Below, one piece after another: positions 1,983 to 62,008 of a stretch of 64,000 nt of DNA (positions are counted from its first letter, which is position 1; every line of letters begins with the position of its first letter). Made by a program: the position numbers and the translations under genes. Under the pieces are notes generated by a model, which searched no databases, was not told where the DNA came from, and saw nothing but the letters and a program-made list of their open reading frames with translations. The stretch is from NCBI GenBank assembly GCA_036874045.1, contig JAZBRI010000009.1, forward strand, positions 3,534,001 through 3,598,000, in the 5' to 3' direction. The DNA is from Cymodocea nodosa (taxonomy: Eukaryota > Streptophyta > Magnoliopsida > Alismatales > Cymodoceaceae).

Positions 1983-3458
1983 CTATTCGGTGTCGGAAGC
2001 AATGCCGGAGGCCACATCGCTGTTGGCGGCGGCGGCGACGACGGCGGCGGATGGCTTGTCGTAGACGAGATTCTGCATCCCAGGTTTGAGTTCGTTGTTG
2101 CAGAAATCCTCGTATTCTCCCTTGTCCCCACCCTTCTTCTTAACCTCCACCATAACCAGAGATGGGGTCAACTCGAATATCTCTGCGGCGATCGTCAGCG
2201 GCCCCTTCTCCCCCTCCCTCGTGCCCTCCAACCTCATCTGGCAATCCTTCTTCCTGACGGTGAAACTCACAAGCTTGGCGATCTCCTCCAGCTTGGACAC
2301 GATCTTCGTCACCGGCTCCCCGGAGACAAACCTCGACCGCTCCCCATCCTCCTCGAACAGCCCTGACAGATCGAACCCCCTCGAGAATGATATGATGTCG
2401 AAGGCGTTGAGGCTCGCCGGTCTTGGCAGACTCCCAAGGCCCACCCTGCTCGTACTCCTCCCACCCTCCGAACACTCCGACTCCGACTCCGAGCACGATA
2501 CACCGCTGTCCTCGTCCAGCCCATCGACGCCCACGTTGTAGAAGCGATCGTTCTCGATGTAGAACCTTACGTGCCGGAATCCCTTCTTGAACCACCGGTT
2601 CTCCATGATCTCCGATATGGTGATCCTGGTGTTGGGGTTGGTGTCGAGAAGCCTGGACACCAACCGCGTAAGCTCCGACGAGAACCACCTCGGGCAGCGA
2701 AACTCCCCCCTGTAGATCTTTTTGTATAGGGCCATGATGTTATGGTCGTGGAAGGGCAGGTACCCCGCCATTAGCACGAACAGGATCACCCCGCAGCTCC
2801 AGATGTCGGCCTTGGCCGCGTCGTAGCCCTTCTTCGACAACATCTCGGGCGCGACGTAGGCGGGTGTCCCGCAGAAGGTGTGGAACAGCCCGTCCTGGCG
2901 AGTCTTATCGGAGACGGCGCTAAGCCCGAAGTCGGAGACCTTGAGGTCCCCCTTCTCGTCCAGCAACATGTTCTCGGGCTTGAGGTCCCGGTGGTATACC
3001 CCCCTGGCGTGGCAGAACCCGACGGCGGAGACGAGCTGCTGGAAGTATTTCCTGGTCGTGTCCTCCCTCAGCCTCCCCTTGGCAACCTTGTTGAAGAGCT
3101 CCCCCCCCTTCACCAACTCCATGACGAAGTAGATCTTGGTCTTCGTGGCCATTACCTCGTGGAGATGGACGATGTTGGGGTGCCGGACGCGGCGGAGGAT
3201 GGCGATCTCGCGCTTGATGTGTCCGACGAGGTTGCCCTTGAGGATCATCTCCTTGTCCATGACCTTGATGGCCACGGGCTCGTCGTTGAGCGCCTTCTTA
3301 GCGACATATACCTTGGCGAAGGTGCCCTGGCCGAGGAGCTTCCCGACCCTGTAGCGGCCGAGGAGGAGGGAGGAAACGGTCGGGGCGGTGGAAGCCGGGG
3401 ATCTGGTGGCGTTGGACGGTAGGAACAGGCCGGCCATGCCTTGGGCGTCTTCGGACAT
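1983..3458 (-). CDS. CBL-interacting Ser/Thr protein kinase (CIPK12/CIPK19-like)
   Basis: Intronless gene for a 491-residue kinase. CIPKs (SnRK3) are activated by calcium-bound CBL sensors and phosphorylate ion channels and transporters at membranes. The N-terminal kinase domain shows the glycine loop GQGTFAKV (43-50), the ATP lysine in VAIK (65), HRD (156-158, as YHRDLKPEN), DFG (176-178) and APE (203-205). The CBL-binding NAF motif is at 351-353 (SLNAFDIIS), followed by the PP2C-interaction region at about 379-412 (KKDC) and the family tail motif ending SDTE. Length and order are normal for the family. Closeness to CIPK12/19 is judged from memory of the conserved regions. I chose the ATG at 3456-3458: the open frame continues 13 codons upstream but only from a TTG, across a run of about 11 G. 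Codons are GC-rich against AT-rich flanks. It looks intact. Confidence 0.95.
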   Translation of the reverse strand: MSEDAQGMAGLFLPSNATRSPASTAPTVSSLLLGRYRVGKLLGQGTFAKVYVAKKALNDEPVAIKVMDKEMILKGNLVGHIKREIAILRRVRHPNIVHLHEVMATKTKIYFVMELVKGGELFNKVAKGRLREDTTRKYFQQLVSAVGFCHARGVYHRDLKPENMLLDEKGDLKVSDFGLSAVSDKTRQDGLFHTFCGTPAYVAPEMLSKKGYDAAKADIWSCGVILFVLMAGYLPFHDHNIMALYKKIYRGEFRCPRWFSSELTRLVSRLLDTNPNTRITISEIMENRWFKKGFRHVRFYIENDRFYNVGVDGLDEDSGVSCSESESECSEGGRSTSRVGLGSLPRPASLNAFDIISFSRGFDLSGLFEEDGERSRFVSGEPVTKIVSKLEEIAKLVSFTVRKKDCQMRLEGTREGEKGPLTIAAEIFELTPSLVMVEVKKKGGDKGEYEDFCNNELKPGMQNLVYDKPSAAVVAAAANSDVASGIASDTE

Positions 3459-3551
3459 CGGATGGAAGGGGAGGGGGGGGGGGTGGTGGAGCAACAAATA
3501 GTGGAGATCTGATCTGGCCTTGTGGGGTCCACCTCTTCCTGTTTAGAACAA

Positions 3552-12059: not shown

Positions 12060-14900
12060 TCATTTGTAGAAAGTAACAGAAAGAAAGCTACAAAAATTGA
12101 TAAAAAAAAAAGTTATATAAAGTAACGAAAAATTAGTAAAAAATATAAATATTTGTATATAGTTAAGAAAATGATAGAGAATAACAGAATATGAATTGAA
12201 TAAAATAAAAATATTTAATACTCTTAGTAAGTTTATGGAAAAATTCATAAGTTAATAATATTTACATCTTTACAACAATACAATATACATTCTCTATTTG
12301 TACTTTCATAAGTTTATTTAAGATCACGATCTTTAAAATATTCTAACTTATCTTAAAGGTTTTTAAGTAAATTTTCTTTATCTATTTTACAAATAAAATT
12401 GTGAAGTAGAAAATATGCATACATAATCTTTACTTGAGTTTCATATGAAAATAACATATAACCACATAGAATTGTAAAGCAATGCTTTATAATTTCAAAT
12501 GTATGCTTGATCACTATTTTTATTGTAAATATCTATAATTGAAAATTTTTATGGTATTTGTTAGAAATCAAGACATATCATAATTAGATAAACGATATCT
12601 AATACCTCTAAATAGACAAATAAATTCTAGTTGATTTAAAAAATCAACCTCTACTAAGTAAAATTTACTTACATTAAAATAATTATTAGTCTAACTCGCT
12701 CTTACTTAAATATAATTTAACTTATATTTAAAAATTTTCAAAACTATTTAACAAGTAAAACTTGAAGTTCATTAGGCCAAGATATTACATCTTGAAGTAT
12801 TCTAGTATCAGTGGCAGATCATTTCCATCCAATAAGAATATAAACAAATTTCATATAAAAATTACAAATGCTAGTATATTTTGTAACAATTCACCTTTTA
12901 TATTCCTAAATTTTACTATTTTTGTTCTATAAATGATTTTTTTAGATGCTTGCTATCTATTGCACCAATTCAATCATGTTAACAAATATAAATAAAGCAT
13001 TACTTAAAATAAGATCAATGTTATTAAAAATAAAGAAATGGTAATAGTAGTTTACCTTGAAGTATACGAAGACATTTACATCATTATAGATTCTATTATG
13101 TGTTCACAAGGAATGCTTCATTAGAAGTAATTGACTTAAATATAGTATGTCATTTAACATTTCATTAAAAACATGACCAATAGTGTAAGCTAAATGATGA
13201 AATTGTTTTCATATTATTCTATATCTTTGATTTTCTCCGATTGTTATTGAAAATAATGTTAATTTCTCATCTACATTAATATTATTATCATTATATACTA
13301 CATCTTTTCTCGATAGGTCACAAAATTGTAGGAATATAAGCTAACTCATATATTATATTTTTTTATAATTATATGTTTGATTTGGTAAATTAGGATCTAA
13401 TAATCTTTTGACATAATTTTACCCATCTTTATTATAGATGCTATTAGTAACAATTAAATTACTATTAGAATGACATATAATTACACTAAAAATACTTCAT
13501 GTACACATCATTATTTTTTGCCTTTTCTTTACTTTTTCCTCCTTTTCTTCTAATAATAGCCTTAATTAGTGAATGCCTTTCTTTGAATTTATTTGCAAAG
13601 AATGTCACCTATAAAAACGTCATAATGTATGTTACTTGATTGCACATGTATAAATAATATTTATAAGGTAATGCATTTAACACATTGATATAAACAGTAA
13701 TATAAGAGTTTATCACATTACATCAAACAACGATATAAGAGTTTATTATATCAAATAATAATATAAGAGTTTATCACATTACATATAACAACATCAATAA
13801 CTCTTTAAAATATTGACATAATTTTTCAATTACTCATCTACTAACAAGTGAACCACATCAAGTCAAATAAAATATCAACCACACTACTTTCTTGTCATCT
13901 GATTTGACCAAAACTTATTTTTGCATTTTTGTACTTTATAATAATCTGGTTGTTTTGAATTGCTCACTATTAATAAGTTTAGATAGTGAGAATAATATAT
14001 TCATCACATCGTCAATTTTCCTTGATGATATATGTTGCATATGTAACATTTCTTGTTTTACTTTATATAATCTATCCATAATTTTCAATCTTTCCTATAC
14101 AATTTTATATAATTCATCTATTATTTCTAACCTATATGTGTTCCTTCAATTGTTCATTTCAAAATATTCTCTAAATACAGTTATTATATCTTAAACTGGA
14201 TTAGACATTAGCTTTTGTAATTTTACATGTGGTTGAGGTTGTTTGTCCTTTTTAGACACATCTATTGATGATGCATTTGTTAGTGGTGAATTTGTTTACA
14301 TTTGAGAAGTGTCATTAATTGAAACTTCATCAAATACTAAAGTAAAAATGTATCAATGCTATCATTGTGCAAATTGATATTTGTATCTTCTTCTTCAAGT
14401 TGTGTATATTTTTTAGGATGTTTTGCTTGAGAATCAAATATAGATATAGTAAAGTTTTACTTTACATTACTTACAATCAAGATGTTTCTACATTTGAGAA
14501 GATGGATTGGTCAAGTCAATGTCATATAATCAACAAATACAAATAATTATAATTCATTACATTAACAAATTCTTTCCATATTTATTCAGGTATATCAATA
14601 TACTCGTTTATGTAGTCTTAACCTTATCCACATTGACTTGAAATTTTTTTTATAATTTTTATACATTAATTGTCAAGTTTTTATGTGACTGTCTACATTT
14701 TTTCTTGTAATGTTACATTTTGGCTTCTTGTGGTATTATTTAATGGCTTTATCCCAAGTATTAGCTCTTATTTTTTCATCAATAGATCTACCAAAATATT
14801 TAAAATAAATTTATCATTTGTTATACATAATTTCATCCTCCACTCTTTCTCTTATATATATATATAATCCTACAAGAAACATAAAGAAAATTTTTTTTTG
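12060..14900 (-). mobile_element. PIF/Harbinger element remnant with transposase and Myb-like ORF
   Basis: On the minus strand, about 12670 down to 12360 decays from a Harbinger DDE transposase. Recognisable are KFYLV (start), ICPFRGIRY, YRYLQ-like and the conserved C-terminal block ending ILFVK, the counterpart of the usual LHNFIR. Upstream on the same strand, about 14870-13890 resembles the Myb/SANT-like accessory ORF of these elements (for example RLEIIDELYKIV, SRKIDDVMNIFSL). Both are broken by stops and frameshifts. Autonomous PIF/Harbinger elements carry exactly this pair. The left edge is placed at a terminus-like TTCATTTGTAGAAAGTAACA. The right edge was not found and may lie beyond 14900. 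Confidence 0.6.
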
Positions 14901-34373: not shown

Positions 34374-35668
34374 ATGGAGAGGCTGCCGAAACACCAAATG
34401 TTGCTGTTGCTCACTTTTGCAATCCTACACCTGTGCCTTGGAACCTCATTCTTCGCTCGCTGCGGTAAGCACACATTCCATCTCCAAACTCATTCATGGG
34501 ATGATATATATATATATATATATGTCCCAGCTAGGGAGGGGGGAATTAAGAGGCAAAGGCAGAAGAAGGGCTTTCCATGGAATTCAATTTCTGAGAATAC
34601 ATCACACAGTAATCTACGTTAATGTCGATAGTTGTTAGCGAATTAAGTATAGAGTTTGCTCACTGGGTCTTCAGATTTCTTATTGTTGGGACGATGCACG
34701 CAGGAGGAGCAGCATCAGAGCAATCCACGCCTAGAGAGCAAAGAAAGGTGAAGATGGTGAGCCGCATGGATTCCCCGAATGATGACCCCTACAACTATGC
34801 GTATGCAGGCTCTCCTTTCAGGCTGCCCCCATATGACGACGTCATGGGCTCGCCTTCACCCTCTTCCTTACCCCAACATGACGACCCTGTTTATTGCGTT
34901 TATCCTCCGCCTCCACCACCCGCCACCGCCTGCCCTTCACCTCCAACCACCGGCATTCCACCACCCGCGAGCACCAGCCCTTCACCTCCAACCACTGGCC
35001 TTGCACCACCACCACCACCACCACCACCACCACCACCACCACCATCGCCGCCTTCACCTCCCCAGTACCCATTAACTCCAAGCCCACCTATCCAACAGCC
35101 AAGCCCACCAGGTCCCATCATCGTCAACCCAACCCCATCGACCCCTCCACCAACCCACGAGTTCCCAAGCCCGCCACAGTTCGTCCCCGCGCCACCGGTG
35201 TTCCAGCCCCCGATCGTCTACCCTCCGCCTTCCGTACCTCCACCGCCGTCGTCTCCGGGTACGAATTACAATCGCTTATGGTGCGTCGCGAAGCCCTCGG
35301 TCCCCGATCCAATCATCCAAGAGGCCATGAACTACGCTTGTGGGTCGGGAGCCGACTGCGACTCCATCCAACCCAATGGTTCGTGCTACGAGCCCAACAC
35401 GCTGATCGCACACGCCTCCTTCGCCTTCAACAGCTACTGGCAACGGACGAGGGTCGTCGGAGGGACCTGCGATTTCGGCGGAACCGCGATGTTGGTCACC
35501 AAAGACCCAAGTATGCGCCACACAACTTGGAGCGCATTCGATTACTTTTATTATTATTTTTCGTAAAACTATTCTTACGGTTTTGAACGTCGATTTTAAA
35601 AAGATTTCAATTCATGATTGCAATTTATTTTTACAGGCTTTGACGGCTGCCATTTTCAACGTGCTTGA
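34374..35668 (+). CDS. Secreted proline-rich protein with X8 (CBM43) domain, three exons
   Basis: Exons 34374-34464, 34704-35510 and 35637-35668 join in phase (930 bases) to 309 residues plus TGA. All introns are GT-AG. Residues 1-30 form a secretion signal (MLLLLTFAILHLCLG core). About 92-216 is a low-complexity Pro/Ser/Thr linker with 13 consecutive prolines (132-144). Residues 223-304 are an X8 domain with six cysteines (224, 243, 249, 258, 286, 304) and the usual WCVAKP, ACG, DC, NSYWQ, CDFGGTA and DGCHF landmarks. X8 domains bind callose (beta-1,3-glucan), as in plasmodesmal callose-binding proteins and the tails of some glucanases, so a cell-wall or apoplastic role is likely. It ends five residues after the last cysteine, so there is no C-terminal GPI-anchor signal. 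The last coding exon is only 32 bases, as is common in this family. Proline-rich architecture before a terminal X8 is less usual. Confidence 0.9.
35006..35044 (+). repeat. In-frame CCA microsatellite coding polyproline
   Basis: Thirteen CCA codons in a row within exon 2 of the X8 gene. Such runs vary in length between alleles without breaking the frame. Confidence 0.95.
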
Positions 35669-37061: not shown

Positions 37062-38939
37062 GGGTTTGCTTGTGTACTTGAAATTTGAATTCTACATAAT
37101 TTAAATTTTAATGGAATTTGAATTCTATAAAATTTGATGGAAAGAATTTAAAATCTGGGTGTTTGTGCATGTTCAAGAATTTGACGAAAATTAAAATTTA
37201 GGTATTTGTGCACATGACAGAATTGAACATAATTGATTTTTAATAAAATTAAGTAACGAATTAAAGTAATTAGTAAAAATGTAATTAATTTATTAATGAA
37301 TTATTTACATTAATAAATGAACATATTATTAAATTAAATATTTATATATCATTTATCAATTAATTAAATATATCATTATATAAAATAAATCAAAAATTAC
37401 AGAAATTGATAACTTTTTGGTTATATTACATGTTTAAAACAACAAAAGGTTAATTATAAATTCCTCGTAATGATCAAAAAAAGGTATATTATAAAAAATC
37501 TACTCATTATGATGTTTATAATATTCTCATTCACGACTATCTCATATTGCATACATAATATTTTCACGAAATTTATCTATAATTTCTTTTTTTTACTCTT
37601 ATGTGTTGTTCTCAATAGTGTTAACTATTTCATATTGTCCTTCTACATTTATAGAGTCTTTAACTTATATATTACGTTCATCTTGTTGTACTTCATCTTC
37701 AAGATCTTGACATAAGTCTGTTTTATCTGCATTACGAATGAAGTTGTGAACTAAAAAATATACTAATACTATTTTTGCTTGAGTTGTGAAAGGAAATGAC
37801 ATATATCCTTGTAATATTGCAAAATGATGTTTGACTACTCCAAATGTATGTTCAATTAATGTCTACAACTATGAATGTCTATAGTTGAAGTTTTCCACTG
37901 CATTTGTTGGTTGTCAATTTTATTCATATTTTGATAAGTGATATCGAACACCTCGAAATGGACATATAAACTCAAGCCTATTTGGAAATTCAGCATCAAC
38001 TAAGTAAAATTTACCAGTAAGTAATTATTCGATACAGTGATAAAAAATAGCAAGTTTCTCCTCTACACTCATATTTTGACTATTTGATAGTACTTTCATA
38101 TTTCTTAATAATCTACAAAATTGTGAAAAAACATTTTGACTTATTCGATAAATTTTTCTATAGTAAATAATTACCAGTAAGTAATTATTCGATATAGTGA
38201 TCAAATAAATTAATTACCAGTAAGTAGTAACACTTCAAGGAATCACGTCCAAGGAATCACGTCGACAGTGTCAACGAATGTTTTGATGGCCAGTAGGGCC
38301 TTGGCGTCGTTTTCGCTCCCTCTCTCCGACCCATACATGCCAAAATGCAAGGAAAGGAGCATGAAGATGTTGGAGATCACGGTGCTCATCTGGGCTCTCA
38401 GGCTCCTCTCTCTTCTAATATTCTTCTTCTTCTTCTTCTACTACTACTTTACCACTATTGTCCTATTTGTGGATCATGGTTTTGCTCCCAGCTACCCTTG
38501 GTTTTCCTCGACGTTAGGTGAGTGCGAGGGCGTGGGCGAGGGTGCAGGTGAGTGTGAGGTGCGAGCGAGTGCAAGGGCGTGGGCAAGCTCGAGGGCGCGG
38601 GCGAGTGTGAGGGCAAGTGCCGAGGGTGCAGGTGAACATGAGGGCCCGGGCGAGTGCAAGGGTGAGCGTGCAGCGCAGGCAAGTGTTGAGGGTGCAAGGG
38701 GTGAGGTCGAGCGTGAGGGGGCGAGGCCAAGCGGGAGGGCGAGCGTCGAGCAGTCTGTCGGAAAATGAATTCCGACCTTTTGGGTTGGGAATTCATTTTC
38801 CCAACCTTTACACATGATTGGAATTCAAATTCCTTGAGGGTTGGGAATTTGAATTCCAAATGATACAAACACCTCATGATTTGGAATTTGACGGAAAAAA
38901 TTTTCAATTCCATCAGGTTCCAAGTGCACAAATTCCCCC
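37062..38939 (-). mobile_element. PIF/Harbinger element (1.88 kb) carrying a GC-rich foreign segment
   Basis: TAA duplications flank it (37059-37061 and 38940-38942). Terminal repeats are GGGTTTGCTTGTGTACTTG and, read backwards from the right, GGGGGAATTTGTGCACTTGG. On the minus strand about 38020-37480 is a decayed Harbinger transposase (GKFYLVDAEFPNRLEFICPF, GVRYHLSKYE, LIEHTFGVVKHHFAILQG, VHNFIRNADK), with the catalytic N-terminal half missing. Between it and the right end lies a GC-rich stretch (38240-38770) unlike the rest of the element. It includes an ATG frame from 38268 with a hydrophobic segment and then a G-rich minisatellite. It is inserted in the gag region of a gypsy element. Confidence 0.75.
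38515..38770. repeat. G-rich degenerate minisatellite inside the Harbinger element
   Basis: Short units of the GAGGGCGWGGGCGAGTGY and GTGAGGGYGCAGG kind repeat irregularly. The plus-strand frame through it yields Glu/Gly/Ala/Arg low complexity and is probably not coding. Confidence 0.6.
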
Positions 38940-49226: not shown

Positions 49227-50999
49227 TGAAGTAGATTGCAATGGTGTTCTCAGTATCTATACATCAATTGGATGAAGGATCAATAAATTGTCTTGTTGAT
49301 GGATGAGTCACTAATGTGGGCTTTGTATTAGGGATTGATAGATGAGTTAGGAACTTAGGGTTAAATTGTCTTAGCGTGGAATATTGATAGACGAGTTAGG
49401 AACTTAGGGTTAAATTGTCTTAATGTGGAATCTATCTCCAAACATGGAATGAAAATAAAATTACTTTCAATTAAACAATACACCTAGTATATCAAGATAA
49501 ACTTAATTAAAATTATATGTATTAATTTAGAGTATGTGCATTGTTGGAAAGTTAAGATAGTTAAGAAACAGAAAATCAGGAGAGTTAGAGAATGGAAAAT
49601 TAGGAAAGTGATATTAGTAGTTTGTGTCCTTAGAAAGTTAGGAAAGTTGTATATGTAAAATTTTTTTATGAATAACTTAAACATTAATATTATTAACCTT
49701 ATAATAAATCATGAATTATTAATAATTAAACTACAATACATATTTCCACAAAATCTAAGTAATTTGAAATAAAAATTAATAGTGAAAAGTTCTCATATAA
49801 TTTCTTACATTCAAATATTAAAAATGTATCAAAACAAGTTTATCAATTAAGAAATTACAATATTTTGAAAATGACTTAATAATTTTGATTATCTTACGTA
49901 GATTTTATAATTGTTTTATGCATTTGATCTGCTATTATTTTTCTTTATTCTAGAGTGTTACCAATAATATGTATGTCTCATTTTCAATGTCTTGGAACTT
50001 TAATTTCATCATCATTTCTAATTTTTTCTATTTCATTTTGAAAATATTTAAGTAGATTTATTTTATATGTTTTACGAATAAAATTATGGAGTAGAAAATA
50101 AGCTTGAACAATATTAACTTGTGTTATATAAGGAAATGACATATAATCTTGTAAAATTGAGAAATGATATTTTATTACTTTAAATGTGTGTTCAATGATT
50201 GTTTGTAATTGTGAATATTTATAATTGAAAATTTTAATAGCATTACTTGAAAGTTGATTAATATCATACTCATTTAAGTGATATCAAACATCTTGAAATT
50301 TAGTAATAAATTCTAATTGATTTGGTTGACCAACATAAATCAAATAAAAATTTCATGCATACAAAAGTTATGCCAAACCAATTGTTAAATGGTTAAAAAT
50401 AATATTTAAGTGCTTTGATACGGTTGAGATGGTGGAAGAAGAAACAAGATAGATTCAAGCATACATGAATACAAGAATTTTACATGGTTTAGTAGAATAA
50501 CCTACGTCTATGATGGTGCTAGTAAGTTCTCTTCCATTATATTGGAATACATCCATTTAAATAAGGAAAAATCTAAGAAATCAAGCATTCATTACAATAT
50601 TATAAAGATATCCTCTCTATGCATAAGCAATATCCTAATAACTAACAAGACATGTGACAACTTAACAAAACATGTAAGGGTGCCCAAGTAACAACAAACA
50701 TTTTTATTGTTTGGTTGAACTCCATCGGACAATCACATTTGTCTGATGAAGATCAGATTCTTTGATCTTCACATTCAGAGTATTCAGATAAAAGTTTAGA
50801 CTTTCCTGATTTCTCTGATTAACCTTTAAAGCAATCTAATTTCTCTAACAATTCTTCTTGTTTGTTTGCTTATGCATTCATTTTAAGTAAACTCCTCTCT
50901 GGTCTGACTGAATTACTTGTTTGGTTCAACCAAACTCTTTTTCAGTTTGACTGAATTGCCTCTTTAATATGACCATTTATGTGTTTGGTTTGTTTGAAC
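49227..50999. repeat. Duplicated block, copy A (Harbinger remnant plus copia LTR)
   Basis: Matches 59935-62008 in order and orientation, from ATTGCAATGG on the left to TGCATTCATTTTAA near 50990. It differs by a 49-bp tandem duplication here (ATTGATAGAYGAGTTAGGAA at 49334 and 49383), by a SINE present only in copy B, and by small indels. It includes the transposase remnant at 49985-50363 and most of the LTR at 50383-51029. Confidence 0.8.
49985..50363 (-). pseudogene. PIF/Harbinger transposase C-terminal remnant (copy A)
   Basis: The minus strand reads FYLIYVGQPNQLEFITKFQD, YHLNEYDINQLSSNAIKIFN, LQTIIEHTFKVIKYHFSILQ, YFLLHNFIRK, nearly open with a single stop. This is the conserved C-terminal part of Harbinger DDE transposases. 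It is the best preserved of the four such remnants in the window. Confidence 0.75.
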
Positions 51000-57074: not shown

Positions 57075-59930
57075 ATCTCCTACTTCGAATTTAACACAAT
57101 GATCGAAAGAAAAATCAATCTCTACACTTGACTTACAGATTATTGCAACAGCTGCTTAAATAATCATCAACTCTTCATCTCCTTCTTCTTTTCAATTTTT
57201 CAGGAGACCAATTAAGGCCATATAGAGCCTTAATTTCTGCAGATTCAGAACTTTGGTTAGCATATCTGCTGTATTTTCAGATCCAGCAATCTTCCGCAGA
57301 TCTAACCTGTTCTACTTTATCTCTTCTCTTATGAAACGAAATCTCATTATTATTTGCTTGGACCTTGAATGAAATTTTGGATTCTCAGCTAAATAAATTG
57401 TACTTTGATTGTCACAGAACAGAATGCTTTTGTTTTGTTTGTACTCTAATTCGGCTAGTACATTCTCTAACCAGATTCTTTCTTTAGCTACCTCTGCTAC
57501 TGCAACATATTCAGCTTCTGTGGTTGAGAGTACAACAATACTTTGCAACTTGGATCTCCAGCTAATTGCAGTATTTCTTATGCAGAAAACATAACCTGAA
57601 ATACTTCTGCTTTTATCCAACTCTCTTCCTAAATCAGCATCATAGTAGCCAATCAATTCAACTGGTCATTTTTTGAAATTCAGATCTACATCTAGGGAAT
57701 ATCTGAGATATCTGAGTATCTACAGTATTGCAGACCAATGCTTAGCTCTTGGTTCTGCCATATCTCTACTGACCACTCTCATTGTATGAGATATATCAGG
57801 TCTTGTGCATATCATGACATACATTAAACTTCTCACTACTGAAGTATATGATATTCTGGACATTCTTGTCCTTTCTTCTTCAGTCTTAGCTGATTGATAT
57901 TTAGACAACTTGAAGTAGGGTCCGAGAGGTAGTTCAGTCTTCCTTTCATTTGAGATATTAAATCTCTTTAGTACCTTTTCTAGATACTTCTTCTGATTTA
58001 ATCTCAAAGTGTCTGTCACTCTATCTCGGATAATTTTCATACCTAAGATTTTCTTGACTTCTCCTATATCCTTCATGTCAAATTCTTTTGACAGTTGTCT
58101 CTTCAATTACTTAATTTGTTCCATACTAGAACAAGCAATTAACATATTATCTACATAAATCAGTAGAATAATAAAACAATCATTTAGTAGTTTTATGTAG
58201 CAGCAATAGTCTGTATCACATCTTTTGAAGCTTAGGGTATAGATAAATGTATCAAATTTCTTGTACCATTGTCGTGGTGCTTGCTTCAAACCATACAGAT
58301 TTTTCAGCAATCTACAAACTGTCTTTCTTTTCTTACCAATAACTGCAAATCTTTTTGGTTGCATCATGTAAAGTTCTTCTTGTAAGTCACCATATAGGAA
58401 TGCTGTCTTTACATCCATTTGCTCCAAGAGTAAATTTTCTACAGCAACAATGTTTAAGACTATTCTAATAGTATTCATCTTCACAACAGGAGAGAATATT
58501 TCTATATAGTTTATATCTTGAATTTACTGAAAACCCTTGACGACAAGTCTAGCTTTATATTTTTTGCTGTCATCTGGTTGTTCTTTCATCCTGAACACCC
58601 ACTTGTTTCTTAGGATTTTCTTTTCTTCTGGCAAAGAAGTTAGCTCATAAGTATTATTTTTCTCTAGGGATCTCATTTCTTTTTTCATTGCTAACTCCTA
58701 TTTGTGTGCATCACTTTCACAGATTGCTTCCTGATATGTTTCAGGTTCACCATCATTCGTCAATAATAGATAATTGAATGATGTTACATACCTTTTTGGT
58801 TGTTTGGAAACCCTTCTAGACCTTCTAAGTTGTCTAGTAACAACTTCATCTTCTTGATTATCTAGATGTTCTTGATGTTCAGCCTTTGGAAGTTGAATTT
58901 CTTCTACAGGTTCCTTCTGAGGTTGTTTAATATCATTATCTAGATTGATTTCAGTAGTACTTCCAGATTGAAGCTCTGACTGCTGTTCATCTCCACTTTC
59001 TCTGTACTTAAACATCTTGGATTCAATGAATATGACATCTTTTGCATGAATTATTTTCTTGGTTTCTTCTATCCAGAATTTGTAACCAAAATAATCCTTA
59101 CCATAGCCAATGAAATAATATTTTTGTGATTTTGAATCCAACTTGTCTCTTTTGTCACTATTCAAGTGGACAAATGACTTGGATCCAAAGACTTTCAAGT
59201 GAGCATAGTTGACATCTTTCTCTGTTCACAACTCTTTAGGGTTCTTAAGTCTCATTGGGACAGATGATCCTCTATTTATTAGATAGGCAGCTGTATTAAC
59301 AGCTTCTGCCTAGAATGTTTTGGGAAAACCTACATGTAGTCTCATGTATCTTGCTCGTTCATTCAAGGTCCTGTTCATCCTTTCAGCAACTCCATTTTGT
59401 TGTGGAGTTCCAGCTACAGTCTTCTGTCTTCTAATCCCTTGCTTCTCACAGTAAACTTTAAATTCATGGCTATCATATTTTCCTTCATTATCTGACTTGA
59501 TGGATTTGATTTTTCTTCCACTCTGATTTTCCACTTCTGCCTTTTATTTCTTGAAGACTTGGAAAATTTTAGACTTCTGTTTTAGAAAATAAACCCATAC
59601 CTTCCTTATATTGTCATCAATGAAGGTGACATAATAAAGAGCACCTCCTAAAGAACTGATAGGAGCAAGCCCCCACACATCCGTGTGAACTAGCTTAATA
59701 TCTGTGACTTAAGATCATGAGGATTTCTGGTAAAGTTGACTTTCTTTTACTTTCCCTCAATGCAGTCTTCATATATCCTTAAATTGACATTCTTCAGCTT
59801 AAGGATTTTCCCTTCTGCCACTAAAACTTTCAGTCCATTCTCATTGAGATGTCTCAATTTTTTATGTCATAAGTCAGTGTCTTCAGTAACACTGACTGCT
59901 GCAATAGTCATCTTGATCTAATGTTAAATA
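57075..59930 (-). pseudogene. Ty1/copia pol pseudogene (integrase, RT, RNase H)
   Basis: Read on the minus strand from 59930: pre-integrase HKKLRHLNENGLKVLVAEGK, and integrase core with SDNEGKYDSHEF and QQNGVAERMNRTLNERAR (59310-59534). Next are the integrase C-terminal region VFGSKSFVHLNSDKRDKLDS (59198-58698) and RT with MDVKTAFLYGDLQEELYM and YGLKQAPRQWYKKF (58484-58107). The catalytic box reads YVDN in place of YVDD. Then come MKIIRD (58106-57720) and RNase H with STTEAEYVAVAE and CDNQST (57656-57312). There are several in-frame stops and gaps. gag and the 5' LTR are absent, and the element is cut at about 59930 where duplicated block B begins. Confidence 0.85.
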
Positions 59931-60611
59931 TAAAATTGCAATGGTATTCTCATTATTCATACATCAATTGGATGAAGGATCAATAAATTATCTTATTGAT
60001 GGATGAGTCACTAATGTGGGATTTGTATTAGAGATTGATAGATGAGTTAGGAACTTAGGGTTAAATTCTCTTAATGTTGGAATCTATCTCTAAACATGCA
60101 ATGAAAATAAAATTACTTTCAATTAAACAATATACCTAGTATATCAAGATAAACTTAATTAAAATTATCTATATTTACTTAGAGTTTGTTTGTGTACTAT
60201 CGAAAAGTTAAGATGGTCAAGAAACAAAAAGTTTGGAGAGTCATGGAATAGAAAGATAAGATAGTTAGTAAATAGAAAATTAGGAAAGTGATATTAGTAG
60301 TTGTTTGTGACATCAAAAAGTTAGGAAAGTTGTATAAGTAAAATTTTTTCATGAATAACTTAAAACATTAATATTATTAACCTTATAATAAATCATGAAT
60401 TATTTAATCGTTAAACTAAAATACATATTTCTACAAAATCTAAGTAATTTGAAATAAAAATTAATATTGAAAAAATTCTCATATAATTTCATACATTCAA
60501 ATATTAAAAATGTATCAAAATAAGTTTATCAATTAAGAAATTACAATATTTTAAAAATGACTTAATAATTTTGATTATCTCACATAGATTTTATAATTAT
60601 TTCATGCATTT

Positions 60612-61027
60612 TTTATTTTTTTATTTTAAGGGTCCTCCTAGACACTCAAACAACCTAATGAACACTAGGAGCATCCTTAGAGATGATAGAAGGTGAACCT
60701 TCATGGACACTCAAACAGCCTGGTATACATCAGGAGTATCTATAGAGGTGATAACATGTGAGTCTCAATGGACACTCAAACGGCCTGGTATACACCAAGA
60801 GTATCTAAGGAGACGCGAGCTTGTAAGGGGCCTTGCTAGGCCTACTTTGGTAGGTAATGCACACAGCTACAACTTGCCAATGCTTAAGTAGAGCCAACAC
60901 TACTGCCCATAGGTACTGTACGAGAACTTCCCAAGTGATCACCCATCTTGGTTCTGCTCCCACCCAAACACAATTAACTCCAGTATTCTTATAGGAGTCA
61001 GTACTTGGTAGTAGGTGTAAATGCACC
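60612..61027 (-). mobile_element. 5S-rRNA-derived SINE with 15-bp target-site duplication
   Basis: The element reads on the minus strand from 61027. Its first ~115 bases (to about 60912) align throughout with plant 5S rRNA. The A-box-like GAGTTAATTGTGTTTGGG lies at 60980-60963 and the C-box-like GATGGGTGATCACTTGGGAA and following GTTCTC at 60946-60922, at the 5S spacing. These are the internal RNA polymerase III promoter elements. A ~300-bp body follows, ending in an A-rich tail (AAAATAAAAAAATAAAAAA, complement of about 60611-60628). TTATTTCATGCATTT flanks both ends (60597-60611 and 61028-61042). The paralogous block has no insertion at about 49911-49925. A 5S head, A tail and long target duplication together indicate LINE-mobilised insertion of a 5S-headed SINE. 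A Cassandra-type LTR also contains 5S sequence but would have about 5-bp duplications and no A tail. Confidence 0.82.
60641..60810 (-). repeat. 65-bp tandem repeat in the SINE body, 2.6 copies
   Basis: GACACTCAAA starts units at 60641, 60706 and 60771, exactly 65 bp apart. The units share the pattern GACACTCAAACRRCCTRRTR and a following AGGAGYATC. They lie between the 5S-like head and the A-rich tail. Confidence 0.85.
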
Positions 61028-61130
61028 TTATTTCATGCATTTGATGTGCTATTATTTTTCTTTGTTCTAGAGTGTTACCAATAATATGTATGTCTTGGAA
61101 CTTTAATTTCATCATCGTCTCTAATTTTTT

Positions 61131-61470
61131 CTATTTCATCTTGAATACCTTTAAGTAGATTTATTTTATTTGCTTTATGAATAAAATTATAGAGAAAAAA
61201 ATAAGCTTGAATAGTATTAACTTATGTTATATAAGGAAATGACATATAATCTTGTAATATTAAGCAACAATATTTTATTACTTTAAATGTGTCTTCAATG
61301 AATGTTTGTAATTGTGAATATTTATAATTGAAATTTTTAATGACATTACTTGAAAGTTGATTAGTATTGTACTCATTTAAGTAATATTAAACATCTTGAA
61401 ATGAAATAATATATTTTAATCTATTTGGTTGATCAAAATAAACCAAATAAAATTTTCATGCATACAAAAG
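61131..61470 (-). pseudogene. PIF/Harbinger transposase C-terminal remnant (copy B)
   Basis: Same region of the transposase as at 49985-50363, aligned base by base with it but with more stops and frame breaks. It is part of duplicated block B. Confidence 0.6.
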
Positions 61471-62008
61471 TTATACCAAACCAATTAAAAGCCAACTTAA
61501 TGTTAAATGGTTATCATGTAGTGTAGAGAAATACACTCACTTTCTCAAGTGCTCTCGGACAGTTGACATGGTGGAAGAACAAAGAAACAGATTTAAGCAC
61601 ATATGGATACTAGAATTTTACGTGGTTTAACAGAATAGCCTACGTCTATGATAGTGCTAGTAAGTTCTCTTTCATTATATTGTAATGCATCCATTTAAAT
61701 AAGGAAAAATCTAAGACATCTAGCCTTCATTACGACATTGTAAAGATATCCTCTCTACGCATAAACAATATCATAATAACTAATAAGACACATGATGACT
61801 TAACAAAGCATGTGAGGGTGCCCAAATAACATGAGACATTTTTATTGTTCAGTTGGACTCCACTAGACAATCACATTTGTTTGATTAGAGTATTCAGATA
61901 AAAATTTAGACTTTCTTGATTTCTTTGATTGACCTTCTGAGCAATCTATTCTCTTTAACAATTCTTCCTGTTTGTTTGCCTATGCATTCATTTTAACTGA
62001 ACTCCACC

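Follow-up and report, generated by a model that had tools for sequence, protein, structure and literature searches.

A 5S rRNA-headed SINE family in a flowering plant and its proposed L1-dependent spread into telomere repeats

The 64,000-nucleotide stretch of plant DNA analysed here (the window) carries an insertion on its minus strand that begins like 5S rRNA and ends in an A-rich tail. A preliminary description had taken it for a SINE with a 5S-derived head. In the portions of the literature searched, 5S promoters in plant mobile DNA are known only from the LTRs of Cassandra. We consider it very probable that it is an old copy of a large, recently active family of 5S-headed SINEs, with a proposed Pol III and L1 cycle that would reach into telomere repeats.

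The edges of the insertion were defined by two identical 15-bp direct repeats that are separated by 416 bp on the minus strand (Table 1). No second pair of perfect 15-bp direct repeats spaced 380-480 bp from start to start occurs in the whole 64-kb window, and chance as the origin of the flanks was rejected because of this uniqueness. The site was also found unfilled. A paralogous block at 49235-50895, which matches 59935-62005 at about 81% identity, lacks the insert and runs uninterrupted through its copy of the site. The insertion with its perfect flanking repeats, its A-rich 3' tail and the empty site in the duplicated block are therefore all as they had been described. The coding traces of the duplicated block resemble PIF/Harbinger, and shorter pieces related to it lie at 12323-12687 and 37683-38029.

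Table 1 The SINE insertion in the window, its parts and its empty site (all on the minus strand).
Feature	Coordinates	Strand	Remarks
5S-headed SINE copy	60612..61027	-	416 bp; extra A at 61028 possibly part
5S rRNA-derived head	60910..61028	-	full-length RF00001 match, positions 1-120
Head part matching 5S internal control region (A box, IE, C box)	60930..60979	-	consensus compared with host 5S
SINE body, non-5S	60627..60909	-	three degenerate 65-bp tandem repeats with CCTGGTGTATACCAGG-type hairpin
A-rich 3' tail	60612..60627 (about)	-	read from sequence
Target-site duplication, 5' copy	61028..61042	-	AAATGCATGAAATAA
Target-site duplication, 3' copy	60597..60611	-	AAATGCATGAAATAA
Paralogous empty site	49911..49925	-	AAATGCATAAAACAA, uninterrupted

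To characterize the head, we aligned it with the Rfam 5S_rRNA model (RF00001, cmscan) and with the 5S genes of the host. The model aligned over its positions 1-120 with 61028-60910 of the minus strand at 34.7 bits, below the gathering score of 38 and with an E value of 1.9e-5 for the 551 bp searched, and at the gathering threshold it had no match anywhere in the 64-kb window. Among 20 other loci, chosen by hand and each with a full or nearly full SINE copy, 18 held a copy above the gathering score (38.5-47.7 bits). The 5S genes of the host lie in an array at about 9.26-11.27 Mb of contig C1. The SINE consensus was identical to the host gene at 29 of 48 positions in the first part (1-48), 42 of 50 in the middle (49-98) and 12 of 21 at the end (99-119). 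It is closest in the middle part, which contains the internal promoter, with its boxes in the order A box, IE and C box. These names are also used for the 5S promoter in the available parts of PMC10853983 and PMC10886601. The full-length match and the best agreement in the promoter region are in keeping with the earlier claim that the head follows 5S from its first bases through the A box and the C box.

By sequence homology only, the head belongs to a type of Pol III gene with an internal promoter. The tetranucleotide TTTT, an early Pol III stop, was absent from the SINE consensus, and the promoter region of the copies was no better conserved than the remainder (4.18% and 2.5-5.7%, respectively). 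At 17 of the 119 positions, the host 5S deviates from the usual angiosperm 5S; here the SINE agrees with the host at 6, with the usual base at 7 and with neither at 4. The head thus derives from a plant 5S, perhaps from a point partway along the host lineage. The body matches itself at a 65-bp offset, with three repeats at consensus positions 246, 311 and 376 and a hairpin. If the element were merely retrocopied or left over from the 5S rDNA of the host, with no SINE family behind it, this would explain the 5S head and the closeness of the host 5S unit spacing (about 508 bp) to the element length, but such an origin is scarcely credible and was rejected: of 119 aligned positions, the consensus head differs from the host gene at 36, the body matches the 5S spacer only at the chance level of 8-13 bp, and the same body recurs in copies with separate duplications.

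We then searched the genome that contains the window (G000; 374.6 Mb in 28 contigs). The search with the element returned at least 51 matches, mostly full length and at about 90%, with 40 of 950 first-look candidates scored. The first 25 bases of the SINE, with up to 3 mismatches, were found at 488 sites (252 forward and 236 reverse) and in the reversed-pattern control at none, while the exact 14-base start was found at 283 sites (control 1). Forty-five copies were compared, namely the window copy and 44 copies above the cut-offs in 38 fetched stretches, a sample biased towards the copies nearest to the window copy. Their 5' ends were nearly uniform, with the first one or two bases deviating in four. 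Nearly all of them end in an A tail; one (L047) ends in CCTTTAA without a long tail, and another (L056) stops short of the tail. Divergence from the consensus ranged from 0.8 to 9.4%. The window copy is the most diverged of all, at 9.4%, and is by this measure an old member of the family. The family itself has moved recently, since 18 of the 45 copies diverge from the consensus by no more than 2.5%. Two diverged relatives, 68-70% identical (L011 2963-3261 and L020 3947-4347), probably represent an older subfamily of the same SINE; judged by eye, their head retains more of the 3' part of 5S.

Most interior copies are flanked by target duplications. Exact duplications of at least 8 bp, ranging from 8 to 17 bp and differing in sequence from copy to copy, were found in 25 of 30 interior copies, and two of the remaining five have 12-15 bp with one mismatch. 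In these 25, the first base of the duplication is A in 23 and the second is A in 19, and the preceding base is T or C in 21. The nick pattern Y|AA is that of the L1 endonuclease. In 13 of the 25, the duplication is separated from GGTGC by one additional A, so that the element may start at AGGTGC and be 417 bp long. The copies are short, non-coding and repeated, with a uniform 5' end, an A-rich tail and variable duplications, as in other SINEs, and with a 5' region derived from 5S rRNA, as in SINE3. The genome search thus found what had been expected of a 5S-headed SINE family in a plant: many copies with a common 5S start, A tails, differing duplications and a shared 3' body. Together these features mark a real SINE family with a 5S head, distinct from Cassandra. 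Cassandra is the known plant mobile element with 5S sequence (PMC10886601 and PMC10853983, in the parts available), and the 5S-like stretch could in principle be a piece of it, as a solo LTR or a truncated element, but we regard this identity as refuted and give it next to no weight, as the 5S sequence lies at the first bases of the element and not in the middle of an LTR, the ends are GGTG...(A)n, the duplications are 8-17 bp and not 5 bp, and none of the copies read has an LTR pair with an internal region.

Analysis of the flanks showed that many copies lie in telomere repeats. CCCTAAA repeats surround 14 of the 45 copies; a fifteenth that was flagged by the script (L040) is interior. Genome-wide, CCCTAA within 12 bases before GGTGCATTTACACC gave 46 matches at 38 distinct places (control 0), which places 38 of the 283 exact SINE starts directly behind TTTAGGG-type telomere repeats. 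The 38 junctions are distributed over 18 contig ends, none of them more than 109 kb from its end, and the 5' end of the SINE faces the contig tip in every one; 35 lie in fetched stretches and the other 3 are known from the pattern match alone. Among 100 listed exact starts (contigs C1-C7), 14 were within 60 kb of a contig end where 0.52 would be expected, and among the 99 usable of 100 listed 25-base sites, 12 were near contig ends where 0.66 would be expected. Twelve contig tips were read. Three of them (C17 left, C1 right and C14 right) consist of telomere repeat alone. Some of these ends, at least, are thus true chromosome ends. Of the others, seven read N throughout and two (C16 right and C13 right) hold other sequence.

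In the telomeric copies, the poly(A) is joined directly to CCCTAAA, at differing junctions. Neighbouring copies at the contig ends each have the ends GGTG...(A)n, their own poly(A) and their own telomere-repeat flank, with no LTR-type internal region between them. Among the copies compared for three marks of a young subfamily, 5 telomeric and 7 interior ones carry all three. A telomere-only SINE subfamily was accordingly rejected, and the SINE lands at telomeres as well as elsewhere. One interior copy, L040 (C17:6057622-6058039), ends in (A)nCCCTAAACCCTAAA(A)n, with two telomere repeats within the A tail and before an imperfect duplication. A genome pattern search found this tail nowhere else. 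L040 looks like, and is likely, a descendant of a telomeric copy with a transcript that extended into the telomere repeats.

L1-type LINEs stand between and beside the telomeric SINEs where the chains were read (of 20 loci, L088, L089 and L090 gave no row at the script cut-off). Read from the tip inward, the chains open with a LINE that terminates in AGGACTATCCCCTGATGAAT...GGATAG...(A)n. Telomere repeats come next, then one or more SINEs, each of them with an (A)n and telomere repeats of its own, and at several ends a further LINE. At the right end of C1, 4.4 kb of terminal telomere lie outside the LINE, with the stretch between read in part. At locus L023, one LINE copy encodes a reverse transcriptase (RT) and a zf-RVT domain, and a neighbouring copy encodes an endonuclease (EN), which barely passes its cut-off (25.6 bits against 24.5), and an ORF1 with DUF4283. 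The set typical of a plant L1 (EN, RT and zf-RVT, a DUF4283 ORF1 and a poly(A) end) is thus present when pieced together from the two neighbouring copies. The best relative of the LINE protein, among 120 listed after scoring the 7953 candidates sharing most words, is a metagenome protein with 53% identity; named plant proteins are 30-43% identical.

We next examined where the LINE lies in the genome. The exact LINE 3' motif was found at 64 sites (control 0), of which 36, spread over 19 contig ends, lie no more than 100 kb from the end, and 35 of these 36 have the 5' end towards the tip. The sole LINE 3' end in the opposite orientation near a contig end (C12:21896194, L119) is followed by a TA repeat. 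In the stretches retrieved because of their telomeric SINEs, and thus selected for this context, 10 of 10 LINE 3' ends run into telomere repeats, and among 12 further LINE copies at contig ends, 10 run into telomere repeats, one into the next LINE and one, the misoriented L119, into its TA repeat. The other 28 of the 64 are interior, at ordinary sites at least 562 kb from a contig end, and none of their A tails runs into telomere repeats. Strict telomere specificity of the SART/TRAS kind was therefore rejected for this LINE. The single orientation near contig ends is SART/TRAS-like in both elements (35 of 36 LINE 3' ends and 38 of 38 SINE junctions). The comparison of the SINE 3' end with resident L1 LINEs that the preliminary description had proposed showed poly(A) in both, together with a brief stretch of similarity close to the 3' end; beyond these, nothing clearly common was found in the 3' sequences.

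The telomeric copies could have arisen without cutting of the telomere. In this scenario, an element attaches to the open chromosome end by pairing of its poly(A) with the TTT of the 3' overhang and is then capped by telomerase. The orientation is as this would predict, successive SINEs are often separated by no more than about 15-40 bp of telomere repeat, and 9 of 26 telomeric copies have no flank match of at least 10 bp. Against this, the two flanks of several telomeric copies share identical variant telomere bases, most clearly in L045, where AAACCCTAAACCCAA spans the border between telomere and LINE. Flank agreement was also higher for matched than for permuted flanks, although weakly so, and duplications inside telomere repeats are hard to distinguish from the repeats themselves. 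For the 27 copies counted as telomeric, among them one (L052) that is interior, the agreement was 10.67 for matched and 7.87 for permuted flanks, with 0 of 1000 permutations as good; for the 26 copies without L052, it was 10.42 and 8.48, with 64 of 2000 permutations as good. The flank duplications favour insertion over end attachment, clearly in L045 and moderately overall, and we consider end attachment unlikely.

A stronger competitor is that the excess at contig ends is passive. Insertion would then be general and show no preference for telomere repeats, and copies would survive or multiply at the ends because selection there is weak and subtelomeres exchange sequence. The same young subfamily is present in arms and ends, 28 of 64 LINE 3' ends are in the arms, and 83 of 100 listed SINE starts are more than 120 kb from a contig end, all of which a passive excess would predict. 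It accounts less readily for copies that lie inside telomere repeats at 18 ends, with differing poly(A)-CCCTAAA junctions and with one orientation in 38 of 38, or for the fact that 0 of 28 interior LINE 3' ends enter telomere-like repeats, a raw count that is unscaled by the availability of such tracts in the interior. On balance, we see a passive excess as a real possibility, if a somewhat doubtful one.

The reading that we favour is insertion by an L1-type machinery, in the arms and in telomere repeats alike. Pol III would transcribe a SINE copy from its 5S-type internal promoter, and an L1-type LINE would take up the A-tailed RNA in trans. The L1 endonuclease would nick one strand at TT|R, which reads Y|AA on the SINE strand, and the L1 reverse transcriptase would copy the SINE RNA from the nick. 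We infer copying of the L1 type from the duplications of 8-17 bp, the A tails and the nick pattern. Members of the same L1 family, like the SINE, also land in the telomere repeats of the host, where CCCT|AAA offers a nick site of the L1 kind once per 7 bp and on one strand only. Because CCCT|AAA has Y|AA on one strand only, insertion there would give a single orientation, with the 5' end to the tip and the A tail to the centromere. The L1 that neighbours the SINEs in the chains is the presumed partner, and exchange between chromosome ends may have multiplied the copies found there.

A further step can be put forward only tentatively, and we hold it to be somewhat short of an even chance: that a telomere-homing L1 and a 5S-headed SINE parasitic on it build chains at many chromosome ends of a flowering plant, probably a monocot, with the telomeric SINEs as source genes. 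Such chains would give flowering plants a LINE/SINE system alongside the terminal telomere repeats, and, if real, they would possibly help to buffer chromosome ends. Two testable questions follow, namely whether the ordinary preference of an L1 endonuclease suffices to direct elements into TTTAGGG repeats, and whether plant chromosome ends benefit or suffer from their presence.

The window also holds host genes. A gene for a CBL-interacting protein kinase (CIPK) is located at 1983-3497 on the minus strand. Its protein is 70-79% identical to the 120 proteins listed after scoring the 7995 candidates sharing most words; the named ones are from flowering plants, and none of the 120 is close. In a tree with 54 proteins picked from these 120, it was placed among monocots on a long branch, with supports of about 0.88-0.97. 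A gene for a proline-rich X8-domain protein lies at 34622-35566 on the plus strand, and a fragment with a retroviral polymerase SH3-like domain (Pfam PF25597), presumably of Copia origin, lies at 58698-59198 on the minus strand. A search for the maturase family gave 7 matches, the best of which were taken, by their long open frames, as nuclear maturases.

5S-headed SINEs of the SINE3 type are also found in fish and mammals. SINE3 and Cassandra were described by Kojima 2024, the available part of which places SINE3 in Lepidoptera and states that it arose several times (PMC10886601). The accessible text on the fungus Aspergillus fumigatus reports 5S-related SINEs (PMC5063351), and that of Maiwald et al. 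2024 mentions 5S-type promoters for SINEs in animals (PMC10853983). The family described here resembles SINE3 in being a short non-LTR element with a 5S rRNA promoter at its 5' end, and differs in its host, a flowering plant, whereas the cases described in the literature searched are from animals and a fungus. An origin independent of the animal SINE3 families would be expected, since SINE3 arose several times according to the part of PMC10886601 available. With Cassandra TRIMs it shares a 5S promoter in a non-autonomous plant retroelement; however, the 5S sequence of Cassandra lies inside LTRs, and the SINE has no LTR features. The plant SINEs of the Au, SaliS and Angio-domain families have tRNA heads and insert in the L1 manner, and the present family is like them as a plant SINE with L1-type insertion but carries a 5S head. 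Angio-domain SINEs are cited in the available part of PMC10853983. Among the matches listed in the open-access literature, titles and the starts of abstracts revealed no 5S-headed plant SINE. A plant family would mean that the 5S promoter was captured again, this time on an L1-type SINE.

A single orientation, with the poly(A) towards the centromere, is known for some LINEs of telomere repeats. In the available part of PMC10088271, Viridiplantae are represented among the retrotransposons inserted at telomeres by Zepp of Chlorella, and the paper makes no mention of a SINE. The accessible portion of PMC4700185 does not contain the word plant, the passages of PMC9498494 mention no SINE and no plant LINE at telomeres, and PMC6784883, in the part available, reports telomere repeats only. 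Titles and abstract starts among the open-access matches listed likewise included no LINE or SINE within flowering-plant telomere repeats. The elements described here resemble SART and TRAS of insects, Zepp, the fungal MoTeR, Tx1-1_ACar, and HeT-A and TART of Drosophila as retroelements at or within telomere repeats. They differ from telomere-repeat LINEs in that the host is a flowering plant, a SINE is involved and the L1 lies only preferentially near chromosome ends. If the proposed pairing is correct, the L1 and the SINE would be a plant counterpart of SART/TRAS in insects and of Zepp in Chlorella, with the SINE as a third party.
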